A stretch of 64,000 bases of DNA from Halanaeroarchaeum sulfurireducens (GTDB lineage: Archaea > Halobacteriota > Halobacteria > Halobacteriales > Halobacteriaceae), in contig NZ_CP008874.1 in the NCBI RefSeq assembly GCF_001011115.1, forward strand, positions 1,750,440 through 1,814,439, given 5' to 3'. Positions 14,844 to 19,707 of this stretch are shown piece after piece. A model generated the notes under the pieces. It was given only the letters and a program-made list of their open reading frames with translations. It was not told where the DNA came from and searched no databases. The stretch's first letter is position 1. Every line of letters starts with the position of its first letter. A program made the position numbers and the translations under genes.

Positions 14844-15251
14844 TCAGACGGAGTACCCGTCTTCGGTGACCGGGACGGCATCGAACCCGAGATCCTCGAT
14901 GGCGTCGACCACCGCGTCCTGCTCGTCCGTGGCCTCCCAGTAAAAGACCAGATCGAAGGTGCCATCGCGCAGGAGTTGCTGACACTCCCACACGAACTCG
15001 TCGTCGCTCAGTCGCCGACCCTGGAACTGGCCGGCGGCAAAGCGGGAGTCGTCGTCGCCGGCGTAAATGTAAGCGTCCTCGTCGGCGACGACCTCGGCGA
15101 TCGCCTCGCCGATCCGGCGGGTTGCGTCGTCCATCGCCGGCTCCTCGGACTGGGGAAAATCCGTGTGGACGACTACCCCCTGCAACGTGATGTCCCCCGG
15201 TTCGAGCAACGCTACCGCCTCCGCGTACAGATCGTCGTCCGCATCGGTCAT
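14844..15251 (-). CDS. DUF5778 family protein (haloarchaeal)
   Basis: The 135-residue acidic protein begins MTDADDDLYAEAVALLEPGD and contains the well-conserved stretch SDDEFVWECQQLLRDGTFDL. This fits the haloarchaeal DUF5778 family of unknown function. An ATG 24 bases upstream (15273-15275) is an alternative start. The gene is divergent from the cis-prenyltransferase gene at 15359, so the two share a promoter region of about 100 bases. Confidence 0.72.
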   Translation of the reverse strand: MTDADDDLYAEAVALLEPGDITLQGVVVHTDFPQSEEPAMDDATRRIGEAIAEVVADEDAYIYAGDDDSRFAAGQFQGRRLSDDEFVWECQQLLRDGTFDLVFYWEATDEQDAVVDAIEDLGFDAVPVTEDGYSV

Positions 15252-15358
15252 GAACCAGGCTACACTCCGGGTCATTTTACCAGCTCCGGTCGATGCAGCG
15301 ACCACCCACTCCCCGAAGAGGGGAACACTCTTGTCAGCGAGACGCGTGCTTTGAACCG

Positions 15359-16267
15359 ATGCGGGAATGGCTCCGAGCACAGTTCAGATCCGTCTACGAG
15401 CGGGTCCTTCGCCGTGAGATATCGGGAGCGCCGTCCCACGTCGCCGTCATTCAGGACGGGAACCGCCGATACGCCCGCGAGCGGGGAGACGACACGGCGA
15501 CCGGACACCGTGTCGGCGCGGAGACGACCGAACGCGTCCTCGACTGGTGTGCGGAACTCGGGGTCGACGAACTCACGCTGTATGCCTTCTCGACGGAGAA
15601 CTTCAACCGACCACCGGACGAACGCGAACACCTCTTCGATCTGATCGAGGAGAAGCTCTATCAGTTCGCGGACGCCGACCGGGTCCACGAGGAGCGGGTC
15701 CGCGTCCGTGCCATCGGCGACACGGATCGCCTCCCCGAGCGGGTCCAGCAGGCCATCGACTACGCCGAAGCCCAGACAGCCGGGTACGACGCCCTCACCC
15801 TCAACGTGGCCGTCGCCTACGGGGGGCGGGCGGAGTTGCTCCAGGCGGCTCGCGAGATCGGGTCCGCCGTCGACCGCGGGGATCTCGACCCGGCGGACGT
15901 GACCGCCGAAACGGTGGAGGCGCGGCTCTACGATGGCGCGGTCCGCGACGTCGACCTCATCGTCCGAACCGGGGGCGACGAACGGACGAGCAACTTCCTC
16001 CCCTGGCACGCCAATGGCAACGAGGCCGCCGCCTTCTTCTGTACGCCCTACTGGCCCGAATTCTCGAAAATCGATTTCCTGCGGGCGATCCGGACCTACG
16101 AGGCGAGGGAGGTGTCGTGGCGGCGGACGCGTGCGAAGCGCGCGCTGGCGCTCGTTCGGGCACTCGGTGGGGAGGTCAAGGAAGCGCGACGCGTACTCGA
16201 TCGGTTCAGGGACTATCTCCCGGACGCCGTCGAGGACGAGCCGACCGAACAGCAACCGGCGGATTGA
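15359..16267 (+). CDS. uppS: Polyprenyl diphosphate synthase (cis-prenyltransferase), catalytically intact
   Basis: The 302-residue protein carries all cis-prenyltransferase motifs. HVAVIQDGNRRYARERG holds the catalytic aspartate (D33) and the diphosphate-binding residues. LTLYAFSTENFNRPPDE is the TENW-like motif. The C-terminal DLIVRTGGDERTSNFLPWHA and PYWPEFSKIDF carry the RxG and WPEF-type residues. It condenses isopentenyl diphosphates to make the long polyprenyl carrier for glycan transfer (dolichyl or undecaprenyl class). Its stop is two bases from that of a second, degenerate family member transcribed toward it. Confidence 0.93.
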   Translation: MREWLRAQFRSVYERVLRREISGAPSHVAVIQDGNRRYARERGDDTATGHRVGAETTERVLDWCAELGVDELTLYAFSTENFNRPPDEREHLFDLIEEKLYQFADADRVHEERVRVRAIGDTDRLPERVQQAIDYAEAQTAGYDALTLNVAVAYGGRAELLQAAREIGSAVDRGDLDPADVTAETVEARLYDGAVRDVDLIVRTGGDERTSNFLPWHANGNEAAAFFCTPYWPEFSKIDFLRAIRTYEAREVSWRRTRAKRALALVRALGGEVKEARRVLDRFRDYLPDAVEDEPTEQQPAD

Positions 16268-16269
16268 CC

Positions 16270-16878
16270 TCACCGACCAAACCGCCGCTGACGGTTCTCG
16301 TACTCCTGGACGGCCCTGATGTAATCGCGTTCCCGAAAGTCCCGCCAGTTGACGTCCGTGAAGTAGAGTTCCGAGTAGACCGACTGCCAGATCATGAAAT
16401 CCGAGAGGCGCTCCTCGCCGGTCTTGATGACGAGGTCGGGCTCCTCGCCGAAAACGAGGCGCTCTTCGATATCGCTCTCGTCGACGGCCGCAGGATCGAG
16501 CGCGCCGGCGTCGACGTCCTCGGCGATCCGGCGAACGGCCGTCGCGAACTCGTGTTTGCCACCGAGGCCGAGGCTGATCCGAATCGGCTCCTCCGCGGGC
16601 TCGGTATCGGATGGCCCACGGATGGCCACCGGACGGGGGAACGACAGCCCGGCGAGTTCACGTTCGAGCGTGTCCACGACCGTCTCGTCCAGCACGCTCA
16701 CGTAGATCGTGACCCGCTCTGCGCCGTACTCGAACGCCCAGGCGACGAACCGCTCGAGGGTCTCGTACGCCCCCTGTTCCAGCAGGTCGCGTTCGGTGAT
16801 GATGAGAGCGACGTGTTCGGGCGGGTCGCCAGCGGTGCGGCGGAGCCGAATGGCGAGGTACCGTTCGTACAGTCCCAC
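16270..16878 (-). CDS. cis-prenyltransferase homologue lacking the catalytic motif (NgBR/Nus1-like subunit candidate)
   Basis: The 202-residue protein aligns with the C-terminal half of UppS: DLVIKTGEERLSDFMIWQSV and YSELYFTDVNWRDF match the RTGGE-RxSNF and ElyF-type motifs. In the first motif, however, the usual HVAxIxDGNxRxA reads HVALIITERDLLEQGA. The catalytic aspartate position is threonine (about residue 28) and the diphosphate loop is lost. The GTG at 16876-16878 is the likely start. This pattern resembles the non-catalytic NgBR/Nus1 subunit of eukaryotic heteromeric enzymes, so it may partner the intact UppS encoded next to it. That partnership is inference. Confidence 0.8.
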   Translation of the reverse strand: MGLYERYLAIRLRRTAGDPPEHVALIITERDLLEQGAYETLERFVAWAFEYGAERVTIYVSVLDETVVDTLERELAGLSFPRPVAIRGPSDTEPAEEPIRISLGLGGKHEFATAVRRIAEDVDAGALDPAAVDESDIEERLVFGEEPDLVIKTGEERLSDFMIWQSVYSELYFTDVNWRDFRERDYIRAVQEYENRQRRFGR

Positions 16879-16990
16879 GGTACCGGGTGCGTTCCCCGAA
16901 CCCCTAAAGCGACCGGAACGCGTCGATCCGCCCCGCTCTCGCGGTCCGGGTTCGGGACCCTTAAGTGTCGTACCGAAAAATCGGTCGTAC

Positions 16991-18298
16991 GTGAATCGCC
17001 CGCTACGCCGAACGGCGGCGTTCTCGCTCGTCTCGCTGCTGTCACTCGCTGCCGGGGTGTTCGAGGAGTTCGCAGCCGTGCCGTTCGTCGTCGTGGCCAT
17101 CGGCGCCGCGTTTCTCTCCGAGGGCGGACTGTTCGACGTCTTCGCCACTCGCCGCGATCGTGGAGAGGAGACGCTCTACACACTCATCGCGTTCGGTCTC
17201 ACGGGCGCCGGTCTCGGCATCCTGGTCCCCACGTTCGACCTCCCGGTTCCGGTGTTCGCCGCGACGATGCTCTCCGTCGGCTTCGGGGATCTGGGTCGGC
17301 GGCTCGTCCTCGCGGTGCGCGAGTCGACCGTCGCCGGCGTCGGGGGATACGTCACCGTCGGCGGCACCGCCGCGTTCGCCGGTCAGGTCCTCACAGAGTT
17401 CCTTCAGGGGGTCCTCTCGCCGGGTGCGTTCCCCGAGTTCCTCTTCGTGGCGTCGAGCGCCGCGTTGCTCGGGGCCCTGTTCCGCTCGGTGTTCACTGGG
17501 CGGGAGGACCCGCTGGCACTGATGACCATCGCGCTGTCCCTGTGGCTGTTCGCGGACCTGGCCGTGGCCGTAAGCTGGGAGCGGATCGTCGTCGCCCTGG
17601 CCATCGCCGCGCTCTTCGGATACGTCTCCTTCGCGCTGGAAACGGCCTCGGTTCCCGGCATGCTCACCGGTGTCTTCCTTTCGCTGCTCGCCGTCGTGCT
17701 GGGGGGGTATAGCTGGTTCGCCGTCCTCATCGCCTTTTTCGCCATCGGCGCCCTCTCCACGAAATACCGCTACGATGAGAAACTCGAACGGGGCGTCGCT
17801 GAACCCAACAAAGGGGCACGGGGGACCGGCAACGTCCTCGGAAACTCCCTGGCAGCACTCGTGGCGCTCCTGCTGTTTGCGGCCCACGCCCGATTGCCGT
17901 TGCCGAGCGAAGCGTTCGCCCTCGCATTTGCCGGCAGCGTCGCCACTGCACTCGCGGATACGCTCTCAAGCGAAGTTGGTGGCCTCTACGATAACCCGCG
18001 TCTCGTCACCACCTTGCGGCCGGTTGAACCGGGGACCGACGGAGCGATCACCTGGCAGGGGGAGGTCGCCGGTCTCGCGGGGGCGGCAATCATCGCGGCG
18101 ATGACCGTCGTCCTGTTCGACTACTCTCCGGTGTTCGGGCTGGTCGTGGTCGCGGCCGGGTTCGTCGGTATGACGGCCGACAGCCTGGCCGGTGCGACAA
18201 TCGAGGGGGCGATCGTCACCAACCAGGTCGTGAACTTCATCGCGACGACGGTCGGCGGCGTCGCCGGTGGCCTCCTCTATCTTCTCGCGTTCGCCTGA
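16991..18298 (+). CDS. DUF92 (TMEM19/VTE6-like) integral membrane protein
   Basis: The 435-residue protein begins at a GTG and has about ten hydrophobic segments. The DUF92 signature occupies the C-terminal half: ALSTKYRYDEKLERGVAEPN, GARGTGNVLGNSLAAL, SVATALADTLSSEVGG and TADSLAGATIEGAIVTNQVVN. Plant VTE6, a phytyl-phosphate kinase, belongs to this family. Archaeal members are unassigned. The gene is 112 bases from, and divergent to, the cis-prenyltransferase homologue, which favours a role in isoprenyl-phosphate metabolism. The N-terminal half contains an extra membrane domain not seen in short members. Confidence 0.8.
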   Translation: MNRPLRRTAAFSLVSLLSLAAGVFEEFAAVPFVVVAIGAAFLSEGGLFDVFATRRDRGEETLYTLIAFGLTGAGLGILVPTFDLPVPVFAATMLSVGFGDLGRRLVLAVRESTVAGVGGYVTVGGTAAFAGQVLTEFLQGVLSPGAFPEFLFVASSAALLGALFRSVFTGREDPLALMTIALSLWLFADLAVAVSWERIVVALAIAALFGYVSFALETASVPGMLTGVFLSLLAVVLGGYSWFAVLIAFFAIGALSTKYRYDEKLERGVAEPNKGARGTGNVLGNSLAALVALLLFAAHARLPLPSEAFALAFAGSVATALADTLSSEVGGLYDNPRLVTTLRPVEPGTDGAITWQGEVAGLAGAAIIAAMTVVLFDYSPVFGLVVVAAGFVGMTADSLAGATIEGAIVTNQVVNFIATTVGGVAGGLLYLLAFA

Positions 18299-18313: not shown

Positions 18314-18393
18314 GATCCGGCGTTGTCGTTACGAGGAAATGATCCGGCGGTGCCATTGCGAGGAAATGGTCGGCAGTACCGCTACGAAGAGAT
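18314..18393. repeat. 27-bp tandem repeat running into the 3' end of dnaG
   Basis: Units at 18314-18340 and 18341-18367 match at most positions (GATCCGGCG...ACGAGGAAAT). A third, diverged unit at 18368-18393 includes the dnaG stop codon at 18382-18384. The array lies between the convergent DUF92 and dnaG genes and could have arisen by duplication of the dnaG tail. Confidence 0.7.
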
Positions 18394-19707
18394 ATCCTCA
18401 CGAGTCCGGACGCGCACGCTCGTCGGCTGTTTGACGAACGTTCCACGGTCGGTGCCCACGATCTCGGCAACGCCGCGCTGGGCGGCGAGGTCGACGAGCC
18501 GCTGGGTGACCTCGCCGTCCAATACCACAACGTGCGGGACGGTCTCCGCATCGCAGAGCGTCTCGAAGCCGTCCGCCGATGATGCCTCCTCGATGACGAC
18601 CATGGACTCGTCCAGGAGTCGAGTGCGATCCGAGCCGACGACCGCGGCCACGTGGTCCGCGAGTGTCTCACCGACGGCCATTGGTTGTGCGGTCCCAGCC
18701 CCGCTCGCAGGTGGGTCCCCCTCCGACGAACTACCGGCAGCCTGTGCACCTCCCGATGCATTTTCGGCGGCCGTCGTGGGAGTTTCCGAGGCGACATCTC
18801 CAGAGTTCCTCTCTGCGGCGACATCCCCGCTGTTCCGTGCCGACACGTCGACCGGCGAGGCGTGCGTCGTACTCCCGTCGGTGATCGCGGCTTCGGCGTC
18901 GGAGCCCTCGTACGTTTCGGCCGGTTCCTTGTTCCGGAGAGCGACGTCCACCTCGGACCGGGAGAGGTCTTCGACGGACTTGTCATCCGGTGCGACGGCG
19001 ACGTAATCGAGGTCGCCGACCTGGGCGAGTTCGCGCCGGATCAAATCGCCGCCGCGGTCCCCGTCGAGAAACGCCGTGACCGTCTTGTCGATGGTGAGGT
19101 CGGCCACCGCCTCGGGGACGTTCGTTCCCTCGACGGCGATTGCGTTCTTGACACCGTACTTCAACAGGGTGAGAACGTCGGACCGCCCCTCGACGACGAT
19201 GATGGCGTCGCTCGTCTCGACGTTCGGCCCGGCGGGATACCCGGCGTACTCCGTGATATCTTCGACGCGGATGCTCTCTCGCACCTCGTCGAGGATGGCG
19301 TCGCTGTCCATGACGCCCTCGTCGAACGCCGTCGCGAGGAGTTCCTTCGCGCGATCGACGACACCCCGTCGTTTGGCCGCCCGAACGTCCTCGATACGCC
19401 CGACCTCGACCGCGGCATGGGACGGCCCGATGCGCTCGATGGCCTCCAGGGCCGCCGCGAGCGTCGCCGTCTCCACCCGGTCGAGGCTGCTGGCGATGGT
19501 GATCTCACCGACGGACTGACCGCTCTCGTGGTGGACCTCGACGTCGATGCGCCCCAGCTTCGAGGATTGCTGGAGGCCGCGGATGTCGAGGTCGTCCCCG
19601 AGCAGGCCCTCCGTCTGACCGAAGACCGCGCCGACAACGTCGCTCCGTTCGACGACGCCATCGGCGAGGAAATCGGCGTGAATCAGATATTTCGCCGTGT
19701 CCTCCAT
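18382..19707 (-). CDS. dnaG: Archaeal DnaG (TOPRIM-domain primase/exosome-associated protein)
   Basis: The 441-residue protein starts MEDTAKYLIHADFLADGVVE, as archaeal DnaG proteins do. The TOPRIM domain is IIVVEGRSDVLTLLKYGVKN with the catalytic glutamate, followed by TVTAFLDGDRGGDLI with the DxD pair. A low-complexity Ser/Ala/Gly/Asp linker (about residues 275-345) separates TOPRIM from a C-terminal domain that ends VKQPTSVRVRTREDIS. The protein synthesises RNA primers in vitro and binds the archaeal exosome. The linker contains a near-repeat, NSGDVAAER then NSGDVASET. Confidence 0.94.
   Translation of the reverse strand: MEDTAKYLIHADFLADGVVERSDVVGAVFGQTEGLLGDDLDIRGLQQSSKLGRIDVEVHHESGQSVGEITIASSLDRVETATLAAALEAIERIGPSHAAVEVGRIEDVRAAKRRGVVDRAKELLATAFDEGVMDSDAILDEVRESIRVEDITEYAGYPAGPNVETSDAIIVVEGRSDVLTLLKYGVKNAIAVEGTNVPEAVADLTIDKTVTAFLDGDRGGDLIRRELAQVGDLDYVAVAPDDKSVEDLSRSEVDVALRNKEPAETYEGSDAEAAITDGSTTHASPVDVSARNSGDVAAERNSGDVASETPTTAAENASGGAQAAGSSSEGDPPASGAGTAQPMAVGETLADHVAAVVGSDRTRLLDESMVVIEEASSADGFETLCDAETVPHVVVLDGEVTQRLVDLAAQRGVAEIVGTDRGTFVKQPTSVRVRTREDISS

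Follow-up and report, generated by a model that had tools for sequence, protein, structure and literature searches.

A predicted two-chain cis-prenyltransferase and its conserved DUF92 neighbor in haloarchaea

Three adjacent genes of Halanaeroarchaeum sulfurireducens, found in a 64,000-nucleotide stretch of its genome (the window), very probably encode the two chains of a heteromeric cis-prenyltransferase, termed cPT1 and cPT2, and a DUF92 membrane protein that probably functions in the same lipid pathway. The heteromeric synthase itself is strongly supported by sequence comparisons. The active-site motifs are split between the two chains, cPT2 retains a cis-prenyltransferase fold, the chains co-occur almost universally, their genes keep a common arrangement, and both proteins group with a pair from Archaeoglobus fulgidus. 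We infer the physical interaction of the chains, their requirement for each other, the identity of the product and all activity of the DUF92 protein.

In the proposed mechanism, cPT1 would carry the Asp/DGN catalytic site and bind the allylic primer and IPP. The second chain, cPT2, has presumably lost catalysis and would complete the cPT1 site by reaching over the dimer interface with its C-terminal R-x-G tail, in the way that NgBR serves DHDDS. The expected product is a polyprenyl diphosphate, the precursor of dolichyl phosphate, which is the glycan carrier; AglB/STT3 is present in the source genome. The divergently transcribed DUF92 protein would take part in this pathway, its most likely role being that of a VTE6-like enzyme with a prenyl phosphate as substrate.

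The cPT1-cPT2-DUF92 locus

The initial annotation had proposed three genes in this region, and we find the corresponding reading frames exactly there. The cPT1 gene (positions 15359 to 16267, forward strand) begins with ATG at 15359, ends with a stop codon at 16265-16267 and encodes 302 amino acids that match PF01255 with an E-value of 4e-71. The cPT2 gene lies on the reverse strand (16270 to 16878, stop codon at 16270-16272) and encodes 202 amino acids with a PF01255 match at 1e-27; its start is likely the GTG at 16878 (MGLYERYL...), as judged by the conserved N-terminus of orthologues. The DUF92 gene (16991 to 18298, forward strand) starts with GTG at 16991 and encodes a membrane protein of 435 amino acids belonging to the VTE6-type family (PF01940, 2e-55).

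Only 2 bp (16268 to 16269) separate the stop codons of cPT1 and cPT2, which lie tail to tail, and this convergent order recurs across haloarchaea and at eight loci from outside the class. The divergent region between cPT2 and DUF92 spans 112 bp (16879 to 16990), presumably contains the promoters of both genes, and separates them in a head-to-head arrangement that is likewise conserved. Because the strands alternate in this manner, a single operon comprising all three genes was rejected. The trio is flanked by a DUF5778 gene (14844-15278, reverse strand), which is head to head with cPT1, and, beyond DUF92, by DnaG (18382-19707, reverse strand). A DUF5778 gene was found close to the pair in 47 of the 80 related loci compared, and its product is a possible further partner.

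Profile searches of the source genome (2.2 Mb, 99.9% complete) detect cPT1 and cPT2 as its only PF01255 proteins, with no third member, and reveal no second DUF92 protein.

Division of the active site between two chains

The cPT1 protein scores 233 bits against TIGR00055, for which the cut-off is 109.6. Residues of both chains were compared by using the numbering of E. coli UppS, assigned by alignment. The catalytic Asp33-Gly34-Asn35 of cPT1 (15455 to 15463, forward strand) corresponds to E. coli D26-G27-N28, and the equivalents of D26, G27, N28, R30, S71, N74, R77, R194, R200 and S202 are invariant in 40 sampled cPT1 sequences. The equivalent of H43 is replaced by Y in 2 of 18 haloarchaeal cPT1 proteins. 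Thus, cPT1 has the intact Asp/DGN loop and substrate-binding residues of the catalytic chain in archaeal heteromeric cis-prenyltransferases. An RxG motif is absent from the canonical place in all 40 aligned cPT1 sequences, in which other residues occur there. Some R.G is present late in 5 of 69 cPT1 proteins, but farther out, in the C-terminal extension, and in the sampled rows it never aligns with the canonical position.

The cPT2 protein is a cis-prenyltransferase paralogue whose PF01255 match covers only the C-terminal half. At the positions of E. coli D26-G27-N28 it has T-E-R, and the alignment is gapped at R77 and adjoining loop positions. The TERDLLE segment that takes the place of the DGN catalytic loop (16777 to 16797, reverse strand) is exact in 77 of 81 haloarchaeal cPT2 sequences, and DGN is absent from every one of the 81. 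The motifs KTGEERLSDF and YSELYF are retained, and the protein ends in RRFG. Our alignment therefore agrees with the initial annotation, according to which the second homologue keeps its C-terminal motifs and has lost the catalytic aspartate and DGN loop. A further sign, which that annotation did not include, is the C-terminal RxG of cPT2 (R-F-G, 16276 to 16284, reverse strand), the motif that is missing at its usual place in cPT1. R.G is found in all 81 haloarchaeal cPT2 sequences and in all 26 from other classes. This combination, a catalytic chain without RxG and a partner that has it, is the one seen in archaeal heteromeric cis-prenyltransferases. With the DGN loop only on cPT1 and RxG only on cPT2, neither chain possesses a full canonical site on its own, whereas a heteromer of the two would possess one.

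An AlphaFold2 model of cPT2 (pLDDT 83.5) has cis-prenyltransferases as its PDB fold matches (best E-value 4e-11), and those near the top include Bacillus subtilis UppS and human DHDDS. A profile built from cPT2 can be aligned end to end with human NUS1 (17-204; E-value 7e-4), whereas only its C-terminal half aligns with the catalytic chains among the PDB matches. Across haloarchaea, median identity to the window protein is 69% for cPT2, 67% for cPT1, 56% for DnaG and 49% for DUF92. More than 60 columns are invariant in 26 diverse cPT2 sequences, including residues of the replacement loop and RxG. The term "degenerate," which had been applied to cPT2, is thus appropriate for the lost catalytic loop, but the gene is not decaying, given that its product is better conserved than cPT1, DnaG and DUF92.

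RxG contributes directly to known active sites. In homodimeric cis-prenyltransferases its arginine makes a water-mediated contact with Mg2+, and its glycine contacts the acceptor phosphate through the nitrogen (PMC8131916); in human DHDDS/NgBR the RxG tail of the inactive chain reaches over the interface and forms part of both substrate sites of the catalytic chain (PMC7573591). However, absence of RxG alone does not make a cis-prenyltransferase dependent on a partner, because Methanosarcina mazei MM_0014 is active as a homodimer without RxG and makes C25-40 products (PMC8131916). With this precedent, cPT1 might be a self-sufficient homodimer, and cPT2 a modulator or a protein with another function altogether, for example that of a polyprenyl-binding scaffold. 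We consider this improbable because RxG is strictly split between the chains in every sequence sampled, across several classes, because the chains co-occur almost universally, and because both group with the A. fulgidus pair, which is said to need both subunits. A functionless, decaying cPT2 would be consistent with the missing catalytic aspartate and loop, but the presence of the gene in every haloarchaeal genome surveyed, its conservation beyond that of DnaG and its many invariant columns leave this reading with almost no probability, and a pseudogene was ruled out on the same grounds of universal presence and conservation.

The heteromeric reading is also consistent with phylogeny. In our tree, cPT1 proteins form one clade (support 98/95), and all cPT2 proteins lie across a branch with support of 98/100. 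One of the sampled genomes is, we presume, that of A. fulgidus, because its two PF01255 genes, at about 639 kb and 1,090 kb, are where AF0707 and AF1219 would be expected. Of this pair (L172, L173), the AF1219-like protein falls inside the cPT1 clade and the AF0707-like protein among cPT2, making both window chains orthologous in the tree to the pair that we take to be the A. fulgidus heteromer. Activity of the A. fulgidus enzyme reportedly requires both Af1219 and Af0707 (J Biochem 2022). The heteromeric synthase suggested in the initial annotation is thus supported by the motif split, the near-universal pair, the lack of a third PF01255 protein in the source genome and the position that each chain takes in the tree, alongside its A. 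fulgidus counterpart.

Distribution and conservation of the arrangement

Our survey of haloarchaea covered 146 genomes from 58 genera. Matches to cPT2 and DUF92 are present in all 146 genomes and to cPT1 in 145, the sole exception being a 120-contig assembly; most of the genomes have exactly two PF01255 matches. The trio occurs in one fixed order and orientation in 111 of the 146 genomes, and cPT2 and DUF92 are head-to-head neighbors in 125, as counted from gene positions transcribed by hand. Exceptions to the trio arrangement belong largely to one genus-level group, g8 (for example, G006, G027, G065, G097 and G133), in which the genes are scattered. The cPT2 match in several g8 genomes is broken into two pieces at around residue 100, a pattern suggestive of an insertion.

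A cPT2-type match is found in 117 of 119 genomes sampled across the phylum. Among 26 non-haloarchaeal cPT2 loci, many of which are too short to show neighbors, the complete trio has the same arrangement in five, cPT2 and DUF92 are head to head in five more, and cPT1 and cPT2 are tail to tail in a further three. Because the trio arrangement occurs outside the class, it predates the haloarchaea. Lack of conservation of this neighborhood had been named beforehand as evidence that would speak against the proposal; it is instead kept, both in most haloarchaea and in the five loci beyond them.

The three proteins also vary together. With DnaG distances removed, the partial rank correlation between cPT1 and cPT2 distances across 61 loci is 0.55, compared with a maximum of 0.135 in 300 permutations; because the permutations leave phylogeny in, this correlation serves as supporting evidence only. 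In the same loci, DUF92 distances correlate with those of cPT1 and cPT2 at 0.46 and 0.49, respectively, with DnaG removed, and the correlation between cPT1 and DnaG given DUF92 is near zero. Common ancestry and a common location account for part of both the linkage and the distance correlation, and the dispersed genes of g8, with their split cPT2 matches, also count against our explanation.

Candidate roles of the DUF92 protein

The DUF92 protein scores 188 bits against PF01940 (cut-off 27.5) and 176.9 bits against TIGR00297, which is below the cut-off of 205.85 for that family. Residues invariant in 27 DUF92 proteins include K264, R277, N281, N285, D323, S327, E328, D397, S398, N411 and N415. 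The motifs DT..SE.G, GT.G, [DE]S..GA and N..VN are common to DUF92 and a fragment of Arabidopsis VTE6 that itself matches PF01940 at 6e-31. An AlphaFold2 model of the DUF92 protein (pLDDT 92.8, pTM 0.90) has no fold match in the PDB with an E-value below 0.001, and no sequence match in the PDB was found. Flippase-like structures appear among the PDB matches without reaching significance (best E-value 0.11, TM about 0.2).

The approximately 200 N-terminal residues (16991-17590) form extra membrane helices that are absent from the 237-position TIGR00297 model, and this region is shorter in several non-haloarchaeal relatives. A VTE5-VTE6 fusion, which the long N-terminal half brought to mind, was rejected when five proteins showed no Pfam match above cut-off there. 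The two halves are not recognizable as a duplication (hhalign probability 0.4%).

A role in carrier-lipid metabolism is suggested by gene position and family resemblance. VTE6 uses CTP to convert phytyl phosphate to phytyl diphosphate (PMC5745509). The leading, unproven reading is that DUF92 is likewise a CTP-dependent prenyl-phosphate kinase that converts a monophosphate to a diphosphate, and so feeds primer or recycles chains; we regard this as falling just short of an even chance. PF01940 membership and the motifs in common with the plant VTE6 fragment argue for such an activity. The missed TIGR00297 cut-off argues against it, as does the fact that de novo carrier synthesis requires loss of phosphate and not gain. 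Also against it, the source genome has no VTE5/SEC59-type (PF01148) polyprenol kinase above cut-off; its sole PF01148 match is below cut-off and overlaps a frame read as CDP-archaeol synthase. A complete VTE5-VTE6 salvage route is therefore unlikely, although this leaves room for another type of alcohol kinase. Thus, of the earlier proposal of an isoprenyl-phosphate kinase, the family assignment and the conserved polar residues fit VTE6, the missing PF01148-type kinase does not, and the proposal is plausible at most.

Alternatively, DUF92 might act on the product of the synthase, by dephosphorylating polyprenyl diphosphate, by phosphotransfer or in some other lipid step. Its conserved neighbor is a synthase and not a salvage gene, as this reading would predict, but BacA and PAP2 proteins encoded in the source genome are already candidates for the phosphatase step, and the flippase-like matches lack significance, so we judge this alternative to be rather unlikely. 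The presence of BacA and PAP2 proteins likewise makes it unlikely that DUF92 is the only available phosphatase. The BacA/UppP homologue adjoins a weak STT3-like match, the second of its kind in the source genome (C1:867239-869121), and no BacA match was found in any of the named archaeal control genomes. A more general possibility, which we hold tentatively and with slightly less confidence than the kinase reading, is that DUF92 is a dedicated dolichyl-phosphate enzyme whose fold is not yet in the PDB, that became tied to the synthase before the classes of the phylum split and that acts on the product or the primer.

Comparison with known systems

To our knowledge, two-chain cis-prenyltransferases have been shown in eukaryotes and in just two archaea. 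The two-part design is therefore known already; the interest of the present case stems from its generality and from the ancient link to DUF92. Judging from the sequences surveyed, a two-subunit enzyme appears to be the rule in haloarchaea, and probably also in the phylum. The Haloferax volcanii glycosylation model allows a direct genetic test of this design. DUF92 is a concrete candidate for an unassigned step of archaeal carrier-lipid metabolism and, via VTE6, has a link to plant vitamin E synthesis. The window protein has the PF01940 domain and polar motifs in common with plant VTE6 and TIGR00297 but differs in its approximately 200 additional N-terminal membrane residues.

Bacterial homodimeric UppS has DGN and RxG in one chain, and shares its fold and catalytic residues with cPT1 but only its fold with cPT2. 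The human DHDDS/NgBR enzyme is more similar in its organization, with one catalytic and one inactive chain and RxG on the inactive chain only. In NgBR the DGN loop is likewise replaced by ITE-type residues, with ITEV where cPT2 has TERDLLE. The resemblance to NgBR/Nus1 noted in the initial annotation thus stands as an analogy, in that cPT2 also combines an inactive cis-prenyltransferase fold with a C-terminal RxG. It does not extend to the N-terminal membrane anchor of NgBR, which cPT2 lacks; cPT2 opens with a charged helix, MGLYERYLAIRLRR, and has approximately 20 residues ahead of the first strand of the fold. The yeast Rer2/Nus1 enzyme likewise pairs a catalytic with an inactive chain, but Nus1 lacks a canonical RxG (PMC7573591). 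The terminal branch of NgBR in our tree is very long (4.8) and unstable, and the bootstrap has not settled, so the tree does not discriminate between a single and a separate origin of the archaeal and eukaryotic splits. The authors of the A. fulgidus study reportedly favor convergence.

The closest counterparts are archaeal. M. mazei MM_0618/MM_1083 is a heteromeric cis-prenyltransferase that makes C45-50 products (PMC8131916), and a heteromeric enzyme of M. mazei is also the subject, by its title, of a 2019 report (cited in PMC10960109). Both this pair and Af1219/Af0707 consist, like the window pair, of an intact chain without RxG and an inactive chain with RxG. Gene organization differs, in that the two genes of the presumed A. 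fulgidus genome are approximately 450 kb apart, whereas those in the window are separated by 2 bp. Haloarchaeal cPT1 has a C-terminal extension of approximately 50 residues that the A. fulgidus chain lacks. It also keeps the equivalent of E. coli E213, which is lost in Archaeoglobus-like cPT1 (L171, L173, L175, L177, L179, L181, L183, L197 and L199) and kept in cPT2. Human DHDDS resembles the Archaeoglobus-like chains in this respect, because it also has no E213 equivalent.
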